Origin: Fragilaria crotonensis
Lineage: Eukaryota > Bacillariophyta > Fragilariophyceae > Fragilariales > Fragilariaceae
Assembly: GCA_022925895.1 (NCBI GenBank)
Contig: JAKSYS010000090.1
Location: 1 to 64,000, forward strand
Length of the DNA: 64,000 bases
Direction of reading: 5' to 3'
In this document: one piece after another, positions 51,719 through 64,000 of the stretch
How positions within the stretch are numbered: the stretch's first letter is position 1
Layout of the letters: every line of letters starts with the position of its first letter
Program-made: the position numbers and the translations under genes
Notes under the pieces: generated by a model
What the model saw: only the letters and a program-made list of their open reading frames with translations
What the model was told of the DNA's origin: nothing
The model's database searches: none

Positions 51719-51912
51719 CTGGAAACTCTCTGGCGACGAACGATTTTTTTGTCTTCAAGAAACGCCGATGTAGCAATCGCAATTTTGCAGATCTGACAGA
51801 ACGCTTGTCAGAGCTGTTGGATTGCTGATAGCTAGTTTCTTTGGCGTAAGATCGATGAATATTGCAGGGTCTCAAGAGTCAACAGGAGCGGGATCCTTTC
51901 CTCGATGGAATG

Positions 51913-51987
51913 GGGAATGCTTAATGCACTAACGATTAAGGCGCTAACTAAAGCCCTAACCCAATCAGAATCCGCTGAGACGTCATC
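51913..51987 (+). repeat. MULE left terminal inverted repeat
   Basis: Begins GGGAATGCTTAATGCACTAA and ends at GACGTCATC. It matches the reverse complement of 60716-60789 at roughly 88% with one gap. It carries two imperfect inner inverted motifs (GCTTAATGC, TTAAGGCGCTAA). Confidence 0.88.
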
Positions 51988-52257
51988 GAGGGGCGGGGTC
52001 AAAATAGTCATCGAAGGTGATCCAGATCTTACACATGCATTGAAATATGTATTCGAATCGCACGCCGGCATCGCCACACGCACGTGTTCAATGTCCGCGC
52101 CCAACTTTTGAAATGGAATTGGAATAAAAAGTATTACCAGGTACTTGTACCTGTACTGCAGTATCAAGAATACGTAGCTTACGATTTGTTACATTTTACA
52201 ACCCTCACTGCCTATCCTAACCGTATCAACACGTCTCACTAACATCCAGCCACAACC

Positions 52258-55200
52258 ATGGATAACATTACCGCCCCAGACGAGGTGGACAATAACCTCT
52301 TCTACTCTCCTGCAGAGAAGGAGAATTTGCTTGTTATCAAAAAGGAATTTGACGGAGAGTTCCCAATCGGCACTGCGTTTGCAACTCGAAGGCATGCCAT
52401 CGATGCAATGCGTCGTAAGGCAGCCACGTTCGGATTCTTTATCGTCGACCGCGGTATGGCTGCTTGTTGCTCTGAGACAACTTCAAGAGATTCAACTAAC
52501 ACAAGAAGACAGCATGCTCGCGAATTGCTTGCTCAGGAAATGGAAAAATAGATATGCCTCGAAAATGCGCGCGATCAAAGTGTGGGTGTGAGTTCAAGGT
52601 TAACTTTTACTGCAGCAATGAAGGGCAGTCAAGAAGTTACAATCACTAAAGTGCAATTCATGCATGGAAAGGGGTGTAAGCCTTCAGGAGAGCAATTCAA
52701 GGCTGCATGGACCACTGGTGGACATGCATCAAGGCATCTAGCCCGTACACAGAATTTGAAGCTTCACACCATTGTCCAGCTTTTGGCCAGTGAACAGAGA
52801 CCAAGTGCCCGCATGATGAGAAGCTTGCTTTGCGATATGTTGCCAAAAGATTTCAATGTTTCCAGCCAATTCATCCACAATGTGAAGACCAAGGTAAAGT
52901 TGAAGCTCATGAACGGAGACTTTTATCTTCTCCTTTCAGAGGGAACAGTCTCAGAGGGAGATGCTGAGTTCATTTTAAGTCCTAGTGACAATCTACCTCC
53001 CGAGTATCAGTCTATTGCACAGGAAATTGCCAATGATGTCTTAAAGGAAGCTCTTTCTGATCCTGGAAGTATGTGTTTGGTGGTTCAATTCCTCTGTCGA
53101 CTGCACCAAGAGGATCCATCTTTTGTTTTTGACATTCAACGCAATTAAGAATGATGCAATGGTGGGAATTTGCTGGCAGACAGGTACAATGAGGTTTGAC
53201 TGGGACACCTGTGCCACGTCAATTGCATTAGATGGTATGAAACGGCAGCTCAACCGTGTTTGTTACCCATACATTTCTGTAACTGCTGTTGATGGATACG
53301 GCCAAATGGTTGTATGTGCCGAAGCAATTGTGATATCTGAGCGTATTGAGGCATATGCATGGCTGCTTCGGTGCTGCAGTGCATTTTCATGCAAGAGAAA
53401 GCTTGGTGACATTTGCGCTGTCTTTGGTGATGGACTAGTAACTTGCGATACACTGCTCACATCCCTTGGCATTCAAGACTCATGCACTCTCCTTGACGAT
53501 ACCCACCATCTATTGTCTCCAGAGTGTGGTACATGGTATAAACACTTTGGAGTCAGCAGGTGGAACCATTACGGTGGATTGCTGAGAGCCTTGGTGTTTG
53601 AGTCGTACTCATTGGAAGCGTATGAGACGATAAGATTAAAGATTTTGACACTCATGGAATGTCGTGCGGAGCCTCAAAGTCTCCAAAATTACTTTCACCA
53701 GGTCATTCATGCTGCAAGGAAACGATTTGCTCGCTACTCCGTCCTTGCTACACCGTGTAATGAAGGACGTCTTGGGTCATCGATTGCAGAGGCAAATCAC
53801 TCCTCTTACGTCGCTCGAATTGGGGGTGATAGCTGGGATGATCCTGCAACTCAGGTAAAGGACTGCATTCTTCGCATGCAAGAGCTCAGCAATAAGAGGG
53901 CCAGTTTCCGTGACCAGCACAGACGTCAGTCTGCGGCAAGGAGTCACACCACATCCAACAAAACCCTTGCTTGTATGCTTGTTAAGCTGTCGAAGCGCGG
54001 ATTCAAGATCTGCAAAGAAGAATACACAAAGTCTTCAGAGTACTACTGCTGCGAAGTGCTGATTGATGGCCAAGAACATAAAGAAGTGAGACGGACCGGA
54101 GAATCATCCCATAGTGCTCGCCTTACAAATGGCAAGAACTGCTCATGTGATGTGTTTATTGCATACCAGGTTCAATGCCGACACCTCTTTGCATTTCATA
54201 ACAGAGAATTCAGGATTGAGCTTGTCGATTACAAGTTCCATGCCCAGCCACTCTCAGCATCCCCCCAAACCCAGATTACACCGATATTCTTTCGTCATGG
54301 TGTGTCACCAGGGACTCATATGTTGGCAGTCTTGGGGATAAGTTATTTGGTCAGCACCAGTCTATAGTGCCGCTGTCAATTGCACCAAGCATTCTTCCTA
54401 CTAGCCTACACCAGGCAGGTGAGGTCGGTTGTGACGATGATGAACCTTCTCAAGATTTCGACGATCTTGGTGAAGGCGACGATGTTGTGATGTGCATCAA
54501 CACACAGCCTGACCAGGAGGAGAGTTTCCAACAGGAACGCCATACTGTCAATAACACAGACTCGGTGTGCATCAACAACCGGAAGGTGACTTATCGTGAC
54601 TTTACAGATGTTGCGAACAGTGTTGCAAACCTAGCACTAAGTCTTCCAACTGAAGATGCCAGAATGGAATGCCTTGGTATCTTAGTTTGCTTGAGAGATG
54701 CATTGAGTATGTCTGCCAGTGGTCACCAGACATCTTTCCCATTGAGTGGATTCATGTCATCTGCGGAAGAATTCTTGAGCGCTTTGGGCCAAATGCCGAC
54801 TCAAGGAAAGAAGGAATTTTTGCTGATCACTGCAACAACAGCTTTGAGATGCAGCGACACAATAAAGGCAAAGTGCGACACAAGCGACTTACATCACAGA
54901 ATAAGAGAAATGCTTGCAGAGCAAAAAACAGGCCACCAGCACTGAACGAGAGGATTTCTCAAAACCTCCATTTAATTGATGCACGTAACAGGCAAGCACA
55001 ATGTTCATATTGTGGTTCCTGCGAGCATACCATAAAGCGGTGTTCTGTGATGGACAAGGCAGCTTGGGTTGGGAAGAAGAATAGTGATTCTTGGAATCTA
55101 TGGTATCGTACTTTGGGGAATCCAAGTCACCATGAAGTAGTTATGACTAGTGCTGGGGTCACCTTGAACCTGAGTCGAGAGCTCCTGCAAGACATTCCGC

Positions 55201-55526
55201 TTCCCTCCCATACTATTCGCCATCTGTCTATCAAGGCAGTCTTCTATTCCTCTGAGACTGCTCAGTACTTATCACGACCCCCCGGCATATACAGATCGAT
55301 AAATCAGGAGAACATACAGATTCCATCTCCAGATAACAATATTGTGGAACTCCAGCTCATCGAGCGTGGTGGGAACTTTGTTGCAAAGCAATATGATACA
55401 GCTTCCAGGATAGAGAGGGAAGCTAACACCACATTTTATACGCGAGCAAAGACAGTTCAGAAATGGATGGAAAAGGCATCCTGTGATTCCCATCTGTTTG
55501 TGTATGTCAAGAGAAATGGAACGTGA
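52258..55526 (+). CDS. MULE transposase with FAR1-type zinc finger, DDE core, SWIM and CCHC knuckle (five frameshifts)
   Basis: Domain order is complete. A FAR1/WRKY-GCM1-like zinc finger comes first (GTAFATRRHAIDAM...; KCARSKCGCEFKVNF; FMHGKGCKPS). The MULE core follows: D in SIALDGMKRQLNRV, D in AVFGDGLV, E in SSIAEANHSSY. A SWIM finger (CSCDVFIAYQVQCRHLFAFH) and a CCHC knuckle (CSYCGSCEHTIKRC) complete it. The frame changes at five places, each in a homopolymer: A run 52544-52548, G run 52623-52625, T run 53126-53130, G run 54334-54337, A run 54923-54928. One-base adjustments give a single frame of about 1,089 aa. It is probably a functional autonomous transposase with miscounted runs. The alternative is several compensating indels, which is less likely. 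The start is the first Met after the TIR. Confidence 0.82.
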
Positions 55527-56159
55527 CCAAGGTGTATCGATTGACTCGTTTTGGTTTCTGGTGCAATATGTGAGCAGTATCCGACCAACAAGAACTCCCG
55601 CAACATGTGCACATGTAGGGATTCTGTTTGCGTGTCCAACCACCACCAAATGTGTCCAAAATGTGAATTTCTGGTGATTCTGTGTACGTGTCCGAATCTG
55701 TCCGAAATGTGATCTTGTGGCGATTCTGTGCGCATGTCTGACCATCGGATCCATCCGACATGCTATGCACTTGAGGCGATTCCGAGTGCTCTTCGTCCAT
55801 GTCCAATCAACAACTGGAATTGCGCTTCCAACCAGGTATACTTCCTCGCATATTCTCCCCATCACGGTCCTATTCGTTCCGTTGCGGCCAATGACTTCGT
55901 CCAATGAGATCCCTCCAGCAGTTTTCATAGTTGTCATTCACGGTGCAGATTCATTATGTTTATGAATTACGGATTAGTGATTATTTTTGTTCCCAAGGAG
56001 TACTTTATTAATACATGACTTGGGCGAGTACCACGCTACATTTTAATGGAAACCATCATAAATGTTTCCTATAGAAAGAATTGTGTCGGTTGTTAGCAAA
56101 AACTATCAATAGCAGCTATGATAAAGTGACAACAAACAACAGCATGACAAACCAAAAAC
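55527..56159. other. Spacer between convergent MULE genes
   Basis: It contains imperfect copies of a phrase (GTGTCCGAAATGTG..., GGCGATTCTGTG) spaced about 60 bp apart at 55,600-55,800. No gene was recognised. Confidence 0.45.
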
Positions 56160-59100
56160 TCACGTTGTTACATCCATGTCTGTGACCAACGATTCTTCAA
56201 ACAGATGCATTACCTCTTCGAGAGGTTTTCCAACGGCATACAATCCAAACTCCCCGCCAACAGATATACCGTCATCAAGACTTTCCTCATCCGCATTAGC
56301 ATCACCATCCTCTTCGTCTTCTGAATCTGCAACAATAGTTGTACTAGCCAAACTATTGTCATCATCATCGATCGGTACATCAATCAACAAAGTTTTCTCC
56401 TCCTCCTTTCTCTGTAAATCAAGCATACCATGCTTGATAACTTTCGTCTTTGCTGCAAAGAATGAGCCAAAAACATTACCATGACGATTCATCACAGAAG
56501 TACCATGCCGGATCAGCCGACCATCCCAGCTGATGAGCACTCCATGAGTTAACTTAACAGCAATACCATAGTATTCTCTGTCTGAATCAGGAAAGGTACC
56601 AACCATGTTTGGCAAAACAAAATACCAACCACTTGTTGTTCCAGGTTTTTCTTCTGTCCAAATTGTGAACCCTTGGCACGCATCGTTGACATCATAATGA
56701 GAAGAATTGGATAAATTCACACTCAAATCCATGGTGTGTGTCACACGACACATACCACCATCACCATCCATGCCCTCCAGAGCTGTCATGGAAGCATCAT
56801 TTTCCAAATCCTGAGCTACCCTTAGCACACCAGGGATGGTCACCGAAGCCAGTTTTGACACTGCCACCACCGCCTTGGACAGAAGGTGGACAGAGGATGC
56901 ATCTGATGAGGTACGGTACCGAACCTTGTTTCCAGATGTATCGATCCGACTGCCAATTGGATGCATTTTTCCAAGGTCACCCATTCCAGCTCTGGCACCA
57001 GAGCTGCTGAATTTCTTAACCGCATTGCAGTGATTGTTGATGTCTTGCATAAGTGACTTACAACCCTTGCCAACAACAACAGGTAGGTAAGAGATCCGAA
57101 CAACCGATTTGCGGTGCAATGCCACCTTATTGTTGCCATGTCCTGCTCTGATGAGTACATCAACAAGCAAGTCGATCTCCGCACACTTTGTTGGGTCAAT
57201 TACATAAGTTGTTTTAGGATCAATGTTCTTGTGCAGGAAGCCTCTGGCATAGTGACGACAACCACGTCTTGCGGAATTTGATGTGCAATATGCAAAGCGG
57301 TACAATCCTGTCAGTCGATTGCAGTCATACCGAGTAGACAAATCCTCGCCGTCAACAAAATCAGGTGGGAGTGCAGGACCATCCTCGTCAGTTAGCTGAT
57401 GCGTTTTGTGAACAACTCTTCCCTTCAACCGAGGCGGCATTCCCACACTGCCACAATTGGGAGCCAGAAGATTTGTTTCTGATCGTCGCACACCCCATTT
57501 CCAAACACAGCAGTCACCATCAGCAATCCTCGAAATGTAGGATCCTTTGGAAAACCAGTTGTCAATGGTGCTACGAGAATTGCAACGTAACCTTAGCCAG
57601 TTCATGTCGATGGGAATATGAGAGTTCTTCAAACCGGCCATTTGCTTCCTCCTCTCCCGGTGGCAATAGAACACTCCCGCATCAGGAATAAGGACAACAC
57701 AGGCTCGGAAGAAGTCATCCTCCGGCAGTCTCTTCGGAATTAAACCCACACAATTTTGTTCTTCCCGATAATTCTTATGGGTTTGCTCCTCCTCCCCGAT
57801 GGCAGGTATATAATCAGTTGTTCCCTGCCGAGCCAAATGGAGAGAAACATAGGAATACATCTTCACTGGTGTGTCTAGCAGTTTTGCGGCCTTCTTTCTC
57901 TTAACTTTGTGGAGCTTGATGGTCCGCGCAAGAACACAGTCCATCACCACAATTTCAAAATTGGATTCACCATCAGAGGCGTCATAAATTTGAGCCGGAG
58001 AGTTGCACCTTGAAAAAGAGACATGCTGCAAACCAAAAGTATGCTCAAGGGCCGAAGTAATCCAATCAACCGGGGTCTTCATGATCTTCTCCCTGTACGA
58101 CAGGCTGTGAAAGTAAACTTGGTTTCGTTCCTTTTTTGGAGGTGGTGGCACAAATGAATTGAATGTGGTGAGGAATGTGTCAACAGAATGGAGAGGGAGA
58201 CTCTTCGCAATGACATGCGCCACTTGGGCATGAGTAGCAAGGGAACGGGACGGATGATCGCGAAGAATACCAACAATCGATTCCTTGTTTTCCCATGCCG
58301 CTATCCTTTCCGCCTGACGACACTTGCGTGTGGTGGTCACACCATGCATTTCTTCCGTTTGAGGGTCCATAGGAGTATCCACCCCAAACAGGGGAGGTAC
58401 CTTGTGACAAACAACACGCTTGCAATGAAACCCTCCAGCAACAATTATACTCCTAGCCAAGTCGCATGGCAGCGTTCGTCCGAACGGCCCATTCACACCA
58501 ATGCGACAAGGATTAAGCACTTTCTTTCTCCGCGTCAACTTCGCATCATCATCACAAGGAGTGGAGGACTTGCCAACCTCCTTCCCTTTCGACTTCGTCT
58601 TGGTACTCTTGTTGTGGCGACACCCACTCGTTGACTTGAGAGCAACCAACTTCCCCTCATTGGTCTTTCGTTCCTCGCCGCGCACCGCCCTCACGACATT
58701 GTCATCACAAGACGAGTCGTCAAAAGGAGTGGAGGACTTGCCAACCTCCTTCCCTTTCGACTTCATCTTGGTACTCTTGTTGTGGCGACACCCACTCGTT
58801 GACTTGAGAGCAACCACCTTCCCCTCATTAGTCTTTTGTTCCTCGCCGCGCACCGCCCTCACGACATTGTCATCACAAGACGAGTCATCAAAAGGAGTGG
58901 AGGACTTGCCAACCTCCTTCCCTTTCAACTTCGTCTTGGTACTCTTGTTGTGGCGACACCCACTCGTTGACTTGAGAGCAACCACCTTCCCCTCATTAGT
59001 CTTTTGTTCCTCGCCGCGCACCGCCCTCACGACATTATCATCACAAGACGAGTCATCAAAAGGAGTGGAGGACTCGCCAACCTCCTTCCCTTTTGACTTC

Positions 59101-59385
59101 ATCTTGGTACTCTTGTCGCCGCGACATTGACTTGAGAGCAACCACCTTCCCCTCATTAGTTATTCGTTCTTCCTCGCCGCGCACCGCCCTCATGACATTA
59201 TCATCAAAAGAGGAATCGTCAAAAGGAAATGCGGAATTGACAACCACCTTTCCTTTCCTCTTCAGTTCATTGTCACACACTGTAATCATTTCATTGTCAT
59301 CGGAAGAGGAGACGTCAACATGCGAGGAGCAGGATGCCTCCCCCCACTTGGCACAAAGACGAGGCTTTTTTCCAGAGCGAGCCAT
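56160..59385 (-). CDS. Large MULE-borne protein with HxD...H (dioxygenase-like) C-terminal region
   Basis: No family was recognised for the whole protein. The main frame (59156-56160) has 998 codons. Its N-terminus is four near-identical 56-residue basic repeats (KSTKMKSKGKEVGKSSTPFD). The natural start is probably Met 59385 (MARSGKKPRLCAKWGE), but an 8-bp deletion at 59126/59127, relative to the other repeat units, shifts that frame. Numbering from 59156, residues 810-910 read SNSSHYDVNDA, GFTIWTEE, GWYFVLPN, GIAVKLTHGVLISWDGRLIRHGTSV. His820-x-Asp822 and His884 fit the Fe(II) triad of a double-stranded beta-helix 2-oxoglutarate dioxygenase, with the ISWDGR strand just before the distal His. 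An acidic tail follows. A homologue at 62754-64000 keeps these residues. The activity is inferred from pattern only. Confidence 0.6.
58560..59230 (-). repeat. 168-bp intragenic tandem repeat, four units
   Basis: The phrase TACTCTTGT recurs at 58604, 58772, 58940 and 59108, exactly 168 bp apart, encoding 56-residue repeats in the HxD protein. The unit nearest the 5' end of the gene lacks 8 bp (CCCACTCG on the plus strand). Confidence 0.9.
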
Positions 59386-59399
59386 AACATAAATATAGG

Positions 59400-60375
59400 A
59401 GGCATTAAGATGGCAGTAGTGCCGTGTCTTTGCAAATGCAGCAAGCAGTTGAAGGAATTTAATGCCGATCGAGAAAGGTACCGAAACAAAATCCGCAATG
59501 GCCCCGGAAGCTCGCAAGGATGGCAACACTTCACAGCAGTCCAAGGGAGATAATTCGGATACGTCTCGAAACCAAAAGGTATCGCCCAACAATAGCAGAA
59601 GCTTGTGGTAGTACCGTTGTGCCTTTGCAAGCACAGCAGGCTGTTGAAGCGATTAAATGCCGATCGCAATAGGTACCAAAACAAAATCCGTAATGGACCA
59701 CCACGGAAGCTTGCAAGGATGGCAACACTTCACAGCAGTCCAAGGGAGATAATTTGGATACGTCTTGAAACCAAAAGGTATCGCCCAACAATAGCAGAAG
59801 CTTGTGGTAGTACCATCGTGCCTTCGCAAGCACAGCAGGCTGTTGAAGCGATTAAATGCCGATCGCAATAGGTACCGAAACAAAATCAACAATGGACCAC
59901 CGAAGCTTGCAAGGATGGCAACACTTCACAGCAGTCCAAGGGAGATAATTCGGATACGTTTCGAAACCGAAAGGTATCGCCCAACAATAGCAGAAGCTTG
60001 TGGTAGTACCATCGTGCCTTTGCAAGCACAGCAGGCTGTCGTAGTGATTAAATGCCGATCGCGAAAGGTACCGAAACAAAATCCGCAATGGACCACCGAA
60101 GCTTGCAAGGATGGCAACACTTCACAGCAGTCCAAGGGAGATAATTCGGATACGTTTCGAAACCGAAAGGTATCGCCCAACAATAGCAGAAGCTTGTGGT
60201 AGTACCATCGTGCCTTTGCAAGCACAGCAGGCTGTCGTAGTGATTAAATGCCGATCGCGAAAGGTACCGAAACAAAATCCGCAATGGACCACCGAAGCTT
60301 GCAAGGATGGCAACACTTCACAGCAGTCCAAGGGAGATAATTCGGATACGTTTCGAAACCGAAAGGTATCACCCT
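59400..60375. repeat. Tandem array, five units of about 196 bp
   Basis: AATGCCGATCG recurs at 59461, 59656, 59855, 60051 and 60247, i.e. intervals of 195, 199, 196 and 196 bp. The last two units are almost identical, so the array has grown from the right. It lies between the start of the HxD gene and the right terminus of the MULE and may hold promoter or transposase-binding sequence. It is followed by a short GCT microsatellite (about 60409-60423). Confidence 0.9.
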
Positions 60376-60715
60376 ACCAAACGATATGCTGTGATTTGTT
60401 AGGTAGCACTGCTGCTGCTGCTGCGTGCCGCAAATTCGAGCAAAAAATGAACACAACGACGAGGAAATGAAAAAGAGTAAAGGAGGACAAACACGGCTGG
60501 CAAAATCTGTACTACCAAGTACTACAAGTACACCCTGGTACTCGGAGCACACGGGCTACATGTACAAAGAATAAATTTTTGGCACGTGACAGTAACACAT
60601 GCACTCGTACATGTGCCTAAGAGTATGTTTCATATCGAATATGTATAATCCAATTTTTCACACCTCGATTGAATTATTTTATATAGAGAGGGGGTGCAAA
60701 GAACCATCTAGGAGT

Positions 60716-60789
60716 GATGACGTCGTAGCGGATTCTGATTCGGTTAGGGATTAGTTAGCGCCTTAAATTTTAGTGCATTAAGCACTCCC
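60716..60789 (-). repeat. MULE right terminal inverted repeat
   Basis: Read on the minus strand it begins GGGAGTGCTTAATGCACTAA and ends GACGTCATC, pairing with 51913-51987. The outer 20 bp differ at one position. Confidence 0.88.
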
Positions 60790-60798
60790 GATGGAATG

Positions 60799-61306: not shown

Positions 61307-62185
61307 TTACAGGCAAGCCAGGTCCTTCCGCAGATTAGTAATAGAACTCTGATCAAAAGTATTCTTTTCTACCCCGATACTGTCAATGAGATGGAGTATT
61401 ACTGCCACAGCAAAGAGGCCGCAGTCAATGTCGTTCTGTTGACTGGGACAGGGATAGTACATCACGTCTTGTGGTGGCAAAAGAGCTCTCTCAAGGTGAA
61501 CCGATTCAAGAACGCCGTCACACACTACAAAGTTCAGTACAAACTGGTGGAAATCTTGAAGGAAGACTGCCAATTCGCTGTGCAGCGCCATCGTTTTTCT
61601 TGTGAGGCGAGTGCATGTCATGTTCAAATCATGGCACTGTATGGAGTTGTAAAATCCAACAGTGCGGCCCCAACATTCCAGAACCACCACAAAGAAATGT
61701 TTTGAAAAGATCAGTGGGATTGCAAGCTTTGAGCCATTGGATATAGTATCGTCACTGTAGCTCTTCATCTTCGCCTTGATGCCATCAATTTTCTTTGTTG
61801 ATTGTTTTGTTTGCACGCCAAGTAGGGCATTCGCTTGCTTAATGAGGAAGGTATTAGTGCCAAGACTACCAACATACATCCGGTCATTGCCCTTTGGCTT
61901 GACCTGAGAAGCAGAAATGGCAGATGGTGATGGAGTAGGATGAGGAGCTCCTCTTTGAATCACGAAGTCCAAGAGGCGAGTACTTAGCATTTTGTTTTCA
62001 CGAAGAGCCCTGACATCGTCTTTTAGCACAGACAGCGAGGCACCAAACCTTGGGTCCCCTGGGAAGTGATAAGGACCAACTCTCGAAGTTTTGTTACTGG
62101 GGTGCATGATGAGTGCTGATGAACTACAACAGAGAACTTTGGCACTTTGAAACTGGTGGCGTGAAGGGAAAATGGTGTGTGGCAA
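61307..62185 (-). CDS. Ulp1-like (C48) cysteine protease, transposon-associated
   Basis: 292-aa frame. The C-terminal half fits the SUMO-protease fold: KHFFVVVLECWGRTVGFYNS supplies the catalytic His and, 17 residues later (the Ulp1 spacing), an Asn where Asp is usual. PSQQNDIDCGLFAVAVILH supplies the oxyanion Gln and the nucleophile Cys. The N-terminal half has a short helical region (LSVLKDDVRALRENKMLSTR), perhaps coiled coil. Ulp1 genes are known passengers of plant MULEs (Kaonashi-type) and of other large transposons. The next gene upstream on the same strand is a homologue of the HxD protein. The Asp-to-Asn change may weaken activity but keeps a hydrogen-bonding side chain. Confidence 0.72.
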   Translation of the reverse strand: MPHTIFPSRHQFQSAKVLCCSSSALIMHPSNKTSRVGPYHFPGDPRFGASLSVLKDDVRALRENKMLSTRLLDFVIQRGAPHPTPSPSAISASQVKPKGNDRMYVGSLGTNTFLIKQANALLGVQTKQSTKKIDGIKAKMKSYSDDTISNGSKLAIPLIFSKHFFVVVLECWGRTVGFYNSIQCHDLNMTCTRLTRKTMALHSELAVFLQDFHQFVLNFVVCDGVLESVHLERALLPPQDVMYYPCPSQQNDIDCGLFAVAVILHLIDSIGVEKNTFDQSSITNLRKDLACL

Positions 62186-62281
62186 TGCAGTAGCTACAAC
62201 TACTACGGAATGAGTAGAAGAGAGAATTTAGTTGGTAGTGGCAGCGAGTAGAGAAACGACTCAATTGCTAAATACAATGCT

Positions 62282-62720
62282 GCAGAAAGATAACGAGGGT
62301 TTTTGCAAACGACGTGCAAAAAGATAACGAGGGTTTTTGCAACATGGTGAAGAATATAGATGATTTGTCCAATGAGCGTGCAAAAAGAAAACGTGGGTTT
62401 TTGCAAACAGCGCGTGTAACGAGGATATGTCCAACGAGCGTGCAAAAAGAAAACGTGGGTTTTTGCAAACAGCGCGTGTAACGAGGATATGTCCAACGAG
62501 CGTGCAAAAAGATAACGTGGGTTTTTGCAAACAGCGCGTGTAACGAGGATATGTTCAAATAGCGTGCAAAAAGATAACGTGGGTTTTTGCAAACAGCGCG
62601 TGTAACAAGGATATGTCCAAATAGCATGCAAAAAGATAACGAGGGTTTTTGCAACATGTTGAAGGATATAGAGGATTAGTCCAAAGAGCGTGCAAAAAGA
62701 TAATGAGGGTTTTTGCAAAC
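62282..62720. repeat. Tandem array, about seven 62-bp units
   Basis: GTGCAAAAAGATAACG... recurs at 62316, 62378, 62440, 62502, 62564, 62626 and 62690, with a partial unit before them. The core GGGTTTTTGCAAACAGCGCG is strongly conserved. The open frames it produces on the minus strand are a by-product of the repeat. It lies between the HxD homologue and the Ulp1-like gene. Confidence 0.9.
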
Positions 62721-62753: not shown

Positions 62754-64000
62754 TTACTTGAGGGCCTTACCGGCTGCCAAAATTTTCTGCTTTGCCGAAG
62801 TGAAGGTCCCGAAAAGATTGTTTTTGAAGTGCTGTCGGTGTTTCCCCACCCTCTCACCATCCTGACCATCAGGCATGGAGATGGAGGTGCAGTGACGCAA
62901 TGCTCTGCCATCCCAACTGATTGCTGCCCCATGACTAAGGCGAACCGCAAGACCAGAAAATTGTACTCCATCAGGACGCTTCCCATGCACGTTTGGCATC
63001 ACAAAGTACCAATTGGAGCCCATGGACGGAATTTCCTCAGTCCACACAGCAAAGCCCTGTGATGCATCATGGACGTCAAAATGGGATGAATTTCCCAAAT
63101 TAACACTCGTATCAATGGTAAAGCCAACTCGTTTCCCATCAGCTCCATCCATTGGCTCTACCGGTTCCAATCCAGAATCTGCCTCTGTGCTCAGGATCAC
63201 GCTTAGGACATCTGGGAAACATAAATGACCAATTTCATGCATCGCAACAACCATATCGCGAAGTGTTTGGTGTGGAACACAGTCATTGGTGACAAATGGG
63301 ACGGCGACAAGGTCGCCATTCTGCACCCTGGTACCTAGAGCATGCATTGACCCGACATCGCCTGTGTTATTCCGTACGCTTGGAGAGGAAAGTGCCTCAT
63401 GAATTGCAGAATTGCAGCTAGTGATACTCTGCAACCATCCCTGAACTTTCTGACCGCCAGAACTTTTAGTCTTGCCAAGCTTGACAGCGTGCCTGACTTG
63501 GAGAACAGTGTGCATGTTCAGGCAATTTCCTGAGGGTTCCCCATCAATCATCACATCAATAATTGGATTGATTGTGGGGTCGAGGACCCAACACGTGCTG
63601 GGCAAATTGAAATGGTGGCATCCTGTTGCGTAGTTACGACCACCCTCTCTTGCCGAGTTTGAAAACGCCAATTTGTGGTTGTATAACAATTTAAGCTCCT
63701 CTAGTGGCCATGTGCCAGCATCCTCTCCTGAAAACACATCTGGTGGCATTTTCGGGCCATTGCTGTCGAGACAATGGCCTGCCCGGTAGATGAGACTGTG
63801 GTCGTCAGGTTGTAGCCCCAAAAAGCCAAGTTTCCACACAGAAATAAGCTTTTTGTCATCCTGGAACAAACCCTTGACATAACTATCTTCTCCAAACGTA
63901 TAGTAGGGGGTACCGTCCGGATTATGACAACGTTTGAGGCGTAGCCAACTCATCGGAAGTGGGATCAATGATTTGTCAGAACCAACATCGGGATGCACTC
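62754..64000 (-). CDS. HxD...H protein, second copy, truncated by window edge
   Basis: Partial gene, 414 codons visible, open to the right edge. It is clearly homologous to the C-terminal half of the MULE protein at 56160-59385. Shared blocks: PLPMSWLRLKR versus PIDMNWLRLRC; FSNSAREGGRNYA versus TSNSARRGCRHYA; SVNLGNSSHFDVHDASQGF; NWYFVMPN; GLAVRLSHGAAISWDGRALRHCTS. The HxD (HFD) and distal His (RHC) are kept, and a second His before ISWDGR is conserved in both. It lacks the acidic C-terminal tail and ends soon after TSAKQKILAAG. It sits upstream of the Ulp1-like gene on the same strand. The element's own transposase, if any, would be beyond the window. Confidence 0.65.
   Translation of the reverse strand, partial: VHPDVGSDKSLIPLPMSWLRLKRCHNPDGTPYYTFGEDSYVKGLFQDDKKLISVWKLGFLGLQPDDHSLIYRAGHCLDSNGPKMPPDVFSGEDAGTWPLEELKLLYNHKLAFSNSAREGGRNYATGCHHFNLPSTCWVLDPTINPIIDVMIDGEPSGNCLNMHTVLQVRHAVKLGKTKSSGGQKVQGWLQSITSCNSAIHEALSSPSVRNNTGDVGSMHALGTRVQNGDLVAVPFVTNDCVPHQTLRDMVVAMHEIGHLCFPDVLSVILSTEADSGLEPVEPMDGADGKRVGFTIDTSVNLGNSSHFDVHDASQGFAVWTEEIPSMGSNWYFVMPNVHGKRPDGVQFSGLAVRLSHGAAISWDGRALRHCTSISMPDGQDGERVGKHRQHFKNNLFGTFTSAKQKILAAGKALK

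Follow-up and report, generated by a model that had tools for sequence, protein, structure and literature searches.

A Mutator-like transposon of the diatom Fragilaria crotonensis carries a conserved passenger gene for a possible Fe(II)-oxygenase-like, anti-silencing protein

The subject of this report is a gene found in a stretch of 64,000 nucleotides from contig JAKSYS010000090.1 of the diatom Fragilaria crotonensis (the whole stretch being referred to as 'the window'; assembly size 62.1 Mb in 881 contigs). We see that this gene lies within a complete DNA transposon, where it is convergent with a transposase gene; that its product, a 'passenger' protein of 998 amino acids (aa), belongs to a genomic family in which a His-Asp-His triad is invariant; and that purifying selection held the protein while its subfamilies diverged. 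On sequence grounds the passenger is likely to be an oxygenase of the Fe(II)-dependent kind; the fuller proposal, that it is an Fe(II)-oxygenase-like modifier of DNA bases with which Mutator-like elements (MULEs) oppose their own silencing, is one to which we give an even chance. The features of the element are as follows (window coordinates; a dot marks features without strand).

51903–51912 (.): left target-site duplication (TSD), CGATGGAATG, identical to the 10 bp at 60789–60798 and lying at the end of the terminal inverted repeat (TIR)
51913–51987 (+): left TIR, 88–89% complementary to the right TIR
52582–55526 (+): transposase region, open reading frames (ORFs) in several frames (52582–53148, 53123–54367, 54367–54945, 54669–55526), with weak MULE and SWIM matches and 26 related loci
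56160–59156 (-): open frame of the 998-aa passenger, which is proposed to be an Fe(II) oxygenase
56421–57719 (-): conserved region of the passenger, residues 480–912, covered by alignment A1
56448–56450 (-): K903, possible co-substrate anchor
56505–56507 (-): H884, proposed distal metal ligand
56682–56699 (-): H820-x-D822-x-x-D825, of which H820 and D822 are proposed to bind metal and D825 to read the base
58549–59264 (-): coding tandem repeats at the N-terminus, a 168-bp (56-aa) unit in 4.3 copies (Tandem Repeats Finder)
59157–59385 (-): upstream stretch in another frame, with an ATG at 59385 and the N-terminal repeat motif in common
59423–60374 (.): tandem array 5' of the passenger gene, a 196-bp unit in 4.8 copies with 93% matches, between the passenger start and the right TIR
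60716–60788 (-): right TIR, partner of the left
60789–60798 (.): right TSD, CGATGGAATG, a perfect 10-bp copy of the left

Working inwards from its boundaries, the element is bracketed by an inverted-repeat pair (51910–51987 and 60716–60792) that encloses the 998-aa ORF and whose ends define a unit of 8,876 bp at 51913–60788. The TIRs are each about 75 bp long, and the flanking TSD is perfect at 10 bp, a length within the 8–11 bp of MULEs; it was found among 169 offset pairs tried at that length, for which the chance expectation is approximately 1.6e-4. Forty matches to the TIR are present in the genome, its own two included (40 of 74 candidates scored). Opposed pairs of the same TIR, set 1–2 kb apart, are seen at G000 C385 27114–29072, C387 29361–30365 and C689 25644–26655, and are probably short non-autonomous derivatives. 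The middle transposase ORF (53123–54367) matches the MULE model PF10551 at E 6.3e-4 (20.6 bits, under the cut-off of 27.6), and also SWIM at E 0.027; the genome-wide PF10551 list, which includes other MULEs scoring over the cut-off, contains not one of the 26 loci with a transposase of this type. Taking TIR length, TSD length and the weak PF10551 and SWIM matches together, a Mutator-like element with a divergent MULE transposase is the best fit. Since TIRs and TSD enclose both genes, the passenger is transposon-borne by structure, beyond mere proximity to a transposase; in both respects—a transposon-borne protein, and a passenger on an element that looks like a MULE—the first-pass annotation of the window is upheld. 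The two genes converge, each beginning near its own TIR.

This arrangement recurs. Searches of the genome for the passenger family gave 50 and 123 matches, after scoring 46 of 421 candidates and 101 of 419 respectively; clustered, these matches make up 128 loci, fragments included. At 15 of the 26 loci of the element's transposase type a family member lies no more than 5 kb away, in all 15 cases convergent and at 1.3–2.2 kb, where chance would give about 2.5% per locus; the other 11 have no family member within 5 kb. Contig C592 repeats the layout in full, a transposase and an opposed passenger between two TIRs, and C776, C218 and C63 repeat it with a single TIR detected. Counting the 26 transposase-type loci together with 91 PF10551 matches in the genome, a MULE-type domain lies within 6 kb of 37 of the 128 family loci (21 convergent, 16 divergent and none on the same strand); 15 of the 16 divergent loci also have a C48 peptidase within 5 kb. 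Viewed from the peptidase side, 25 of 76 C48 loci have a family member at 5 kb or less, 19 of them divergent and six on the same strand. The copy on C592 belongs to a 10.4-kb sister element (G000 C592 65869–76319), its passenger-region DNA being 97% identical to that of the window across 3105 of 3226 bases.

The conserved region of the passenger was first aligned as A1, comprising 27 sequences 33–77% identical to the window protein, in which H820, D822, D825 and H884 are invariant. Because the paralogs in A1 had been chosen by motif pattern (as was a larger set of 53 family ORFs), conservation was recounted free of the motif, by a six-frame profile search of 60 paralogous loci (L009–L068); of the 83 matches obtained, 59 span the site. 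H820, D822 and H884 are each present in 59 of 59, with D825 being Asp in 57 and Asn in two. Reduced to 51 distinct rows—the 59 less two duplicate loci and identical rows, near-identical copies still counting apart—the triad stands at 51 of 51 and D825 at 50 Asp to one Asn. H820 and H884 alone of the 17 histidines in the region are fully invariant, the next being H635 (50 of 51), and no cysteine reaches 98% conservation. K903 is nearly invariant (50 Lys, one Arg) and could anchor a co-substrate. The spacing from D822 to H884, 62 residues in the window protein, ranges from 60 to 71 across the 53 ORFs. The motifs and residue numbers quoted by the first-pass annotation are exact, and its three residues, rather than varying freely, are fixed among homologues.

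Ratios of nonsynonymous to synonymous substitution (Ka/Ks) over the conserved region, taken for 25 chosen pairs, are 0.11–0.23 in ten unsaturated pairs with Ks >= 0.3 (two of which have Ks > 2) and 0.11–1.01 in ten pairs of lower Ks; the other five comprise one identical and four saturated pairs. The low ratios in diverged pairs show that purifying selection held the protein during subfamily divergence, and the higher ones in six young pairs that some recent copies are decaying. The window copy is itself imperfect: although the ORF named by the first-pass annotation is confirmed, it runs from 56160 to 59156, and the proposed end at 59385 is an ATG that opens a different frame. That frame shares the N-terminal repeat motif and then meets stops, for which reason we believe the N-terminal repeats are probably frame-disrupted in this copy, ahead of the point from which the 998-aa frame continues. 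The repeats themselves, also noted in the first reading, are present, with 91% matches between units. Some members carry, in addition, C-terminal extensions of about 480–550 aa (L021:2863–4521 and L024:2965–4395), which are alike by eye (a PCPHLQ stretch) and without a Pfam match at E <= 1.

How might such a protein work? The passenger would be a mononuclear Fe(II) oxygenase with a double-stranded beta-helix fold, with H820, D822 and H884 binding the iron and K903 or a nearby residue holding the co-substrate; D825 would 'read' the amino group of a flipped base. In the Chlamydomonas protein CMD1, a homologue of TET whose product, formed with vitamin C, is 5-glyceryl-methylcytosine, Asp350, like Asp234 of NgTET1 and Asn1387 of TET2, reads N4 of 5-methylcytosine (PMC7854593), and these residues are the counterparts of D825. 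An Asp or Asn five residues past the first His, the TET-type arrangement for base reading, is what we find at D825. The same +5 spacing is visible in the CMD1 and NgTET1 sequences, and presumably holds for TET2, given the number we take its first His to have. Acting thus, the enzyme would modify methylated bases, by oxidation or in some other way, within the element or close to it; TIRs and promoters would be spared silencing by methylation, and expression of the convergent transposase gene could follow. The genome contains 13 matches to the cytosine-C5 methyltransferase domain PF00145, some of which are pieces of one gene. CpG observed/expected values across the element (52582–60374) are 0.52 for the transposase, 0.60 for the dioxygenase region and 1.01 for the 5' array, set against 0.84 +/- 0.25 in 1-kb windows to its left; as a methylation footprint, this depletion is suggestive only.

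The first-pass annotation had likened the protein to the TET/JBP dioxygenases carried by fungal transposons, a comparison that fares unevenly: the HxDxx[D/N] arrangement fits, whilst no significant family or profile match was obtained. The window protein has no Pfam match at E <= 10, and the 27 A1 members return seven weak, unrelated ones (best E 0.079). Pfam Tet_JBP matches neither the window protein, nor the A1 members, nor anything in the genome at E <= 10, although as a test this model is weak, pieces of NgTET1 and CMD1 themselves scoring E 0.05 and 0.004, below its cut-off; PF20515 likewise finds nothing in the genome and is uninformative, since its controls also go without a match. One scan with A1 of each of our viral and prokaryote collections gave no relatives (9 and 32 pattern matches, none confirmed). 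In a single-protein search of the PDB, the window protein finds CMD1 at E 0.55 when used whole and at E 0.074 when cut to residues 601–927, with HxDxxD in register. A direct hhalign comparison with the CMD1 piece scores 16.7, where 300 shuffles give 12.1 +/- 2.7 and a maximum of 24. One of two global hhalign runs pairs H345/H820, D347/D822, D350/D825 and H397/H884; the other, made with a longer profile, and the local runs align the first part alone. H871, the distal ligand in the phmmer register with CMD1, was rejected, as it varies (48 H, 8 D, 2 N and 1 Y of 59). Two phage records from a search with NgTET1, considered for a profile, were examined and neither was accepted as a TET; that search gave 66 records, the 20 listed lying at E 0.5–7 and labelled 2OG-Fe(II) oxygenase, oxidoreductase, queuine transferase or hypothetical. 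When reference sequences were anchored on the triad and compared with 100 shuffles each, the z-scores were 1.4 for AlkB, 0.7 for TauD, 0.0 for CMD1, -0.2 for a phage P4H-like protein, -0.5 for GlaH, -0.8 for YbiX and -1.0 for NgTET1, none of the seven being clearly above its own shuffles.

Saying this, a number of results weigh against the proposal and must be set beside it. An HxD followed by a His 40–80 residues on occurs in 828 of 1000 shuffles of the window protein, and the motif by itself was for that reason rejected as evidence. Pfam, NCBIfam and PHROG give no oxygenase match; CMD1 is absent from PDB searches with four other members (the second member in the window, L021, L012 and L035); profiles A1 and A4 match no TET, the best match of A4 being an unrelated synthetase at E 0.043; and the anchored similarity to CMD1 and NgTET1 is at shuffle level. 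The 2-oxoglutarate Arg of TET proteins sits about 10–16 residues past the distal His, and position 894, which aligns with it by eye (the alignment being uncertain), is H in 33 rows, N in 17 and D in one. The AlphaFold2 models, each built from the two window sequences alone, are unusable, with predicted local distance difference test (pLDDT) values of 26.9 and 36.1, so the double-stranded beta helix anticipated by the first-pass annotation did not emerge as a confident fold. A propensity plot for the family places strands before and after HxD, through FVLP and GVLIS, at the distal His and at VFGSFF, a pattern compatible with a beta helix, though weakly and without amounting to proof. On the genomic side, 91 of the 128 family loci have no MULE-type domain within 6 kb, at 88 no C48 locus and no transposase of the element's type lies closer than 5 kb, and the six young pairs, of ten, show Ka/Ks of 0.41–1.01. 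CMD1 as a proven relative was rejected: a single member out of five retrieves it, the two profiles do not, and its scores are not above shuffles. As the CMD1 and profile matches are not reproduced and the anchored scores sit at shuffle level, we do not claim TET/JBP membership, which from these sequence comparisons is possible but doubtful.

If the protein is a beta-helix Fe(II) oxygenase, it may yet belong to another branch, such as the AlkB-like enzymes or the protein and RNA hydroxylases, and its substrate would then be alkylated or N6-methylated bases, RNA or chromatin proteins rather than 5-methylcytosine. The triad by itself cannot separate these branches, E. coli AlkB gives the best of the seven anchored comparisons (9% of its 100 shuffles score as high), and the stretch HG....W.G..RL..HG resembles AlkB by eye. 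AlkB, however, has acids at +4 and +5 (HQDKDE), whereas here +4 is N in 41 rows, H in nine and G in one, the fixed position being +5 alone; AlkB also has a conserved pair of arginines after its distal His, and no Arg with at least 98% conservation follows H884 among the 51 rows, so that such a pair is missing here. We consider this branch assignment unlikely. Somewhat less unlikely, in our estimation, is a non-oxygenase accessory protein of transposition standing in the place of mudrB of maize MuDR, its conserved His and Asp residues forming some other metal site or serving a structural role. The layout speaks for such a protein, since here as in MuDR two genes converge from starts close to their respective TIRs, as do the low pLDDT values of both models and the failure of every library to recognise an oxygenase. 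Against it, HxDxxD and a distal His that follows a G..hhhW....H stretch stand in the order usual for oxygenases, and the region offers no conserved Cys and only H635 as a further His at or above 98%.

That the passenger is a host gene lying by chance beside a transposase, or a dead remnant, could be argued from the frame disruption of its N-terminal repeats and from a transposase split among several frames; for the family, this is already contradicted by the enclosing TIRs and TSD, by the convergent linkage at 15 of 26 transposase loci and by purifying selection on diverged copies, and we consider it highly improbable.

Returning to the Fe(II)-oxygenase-like, anti-silencing passenger, its nearest known parallels are as follows. 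Transposon-borne TET/JBP dioxygenases of the PU, AG and PE types have been described in fungi, with exchange between transposons reported (Kojima 2025, PMC12730594). The diatom family is similar in placing a dioxygenase-like passenger in DNA transposons, apparently moved between transposon lineages, and the fungal PE types also resemble CMD1 barely (HHpred E 1.4; PMC12730594); it differs in its Mutator-like carrier (the words 'mule' and 'mutator' being absent from PMC12730594), in having HxD where the PE types have HxE, and in its want of a significant sequence link to TET/JBP. CMD1 shares HxDxxD, FVLP between the first and distal sites, and, with the window copy, HGT at the distal His, where the majority of other members read HCT, but has 50 residues from Asp to His in place of 60–71. 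VANDAL elements are MULEs. Those of Arabidopsis encode the anti-silencing VANC proteins, which act on motifs tandemly repeated in non-coding element DNA (PMC5735166), and here too a second, silencing-related gene is proposed on a Mutator-like element that has tandem repeats in its non-coding DNA. The repeats bound by VANC hold short motifs, whereas a link between array and passenger is hypothetical in our case; DUF1985, the VANC domain, is found neither in the window protein (Pfam, E <= 10) nor among the seven weak matches of the 27 members. Maize MuDR has two convergent genes, mudrA and mudrB, read inward from its TIRs, a likeness to our element by layout alone and not by sequence. Literature searches turned up no account of a passenger of this sort in the titles and abstract openings of the papers that they listed.

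Arrays with units of at least 90 bp (mostly 94–224) lie on the 5' side of 18 of the 53 family ORFs and on the 3' side of three, in flanks of median length 1092 (5') and 1338 (3') bases; near-identical copies are counted separately here, and what is counted as a 5' array can, L010 being an example, take in coding repeats or remnants. The 196-bp array has full-length matches in the window element and C592 alone, and partial ones in C63 and C776. Such arrays could equally be transposase-binding or promoter repeats. In a passenger tree of 44 distinct members (the 53 ORFs minus L010 and eight identical rows), the eight rows labelled by hand as adjoining the transposase type fall into two clades of four, split with 100/100 support. 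Because the main transposase matches at these loci are 63–89% identical to that of the window, while the two passenger types are only about 38% identical, the tree suggests that the passenger has been exchanged between elements, with the caveats that it may simply evolve faster and that rows labelled 'other' may be elements with decayed transposases. By analogy with VANC, one may go further and imagine a diverged TET-like lineage on MULEs, perhaps using a co-substrate other than 2-oxoglutarate (vitamin C in the case of CMD1), targeted by its fast-changing N-terminal repeats and the promoter-side arrays and exchanged between MULE lineages as a module—an enzymatic counterpart of VANC; this extended version we hold to be rather improbable.

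Beyond the right TSD, the window contains a second, B-type family member and its neighbour.

61307–62185 (-): Ulp1-type C48 peptidase adjoining the B-type member (PF02902, E 1.8e-5, above cut-off)
62754–63998 (-): B-type family member, 414 aa in the window and part of a 751-aa frame that passes the window end, 38–39% identical to the first

An ORF between these two (62203–62718, minus strand) is built of repeated KNPRYLFARSLDIS-like units and is probably a translated tandem repeat, not a gene. Contig C592 also holds a B-type copy, with 95% protein identity, in a relative arrangement unlike that of the window.

Should the proposed activity prove true, this would be the second case, after the fungi, in which transposons carry an enzyme that erases or modifies DNA methylation, and it would come from a different transposon superfamily. 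Whatever its substrate, the passenger occupies some 128 loci in the F. crotonensis genome, is maintained by selection, is linked to MULEs with its orientation fixed, and goes unnamed by the libraries used here; if our reading of it is correct, a transposon could chemically erase its own silencing marks.

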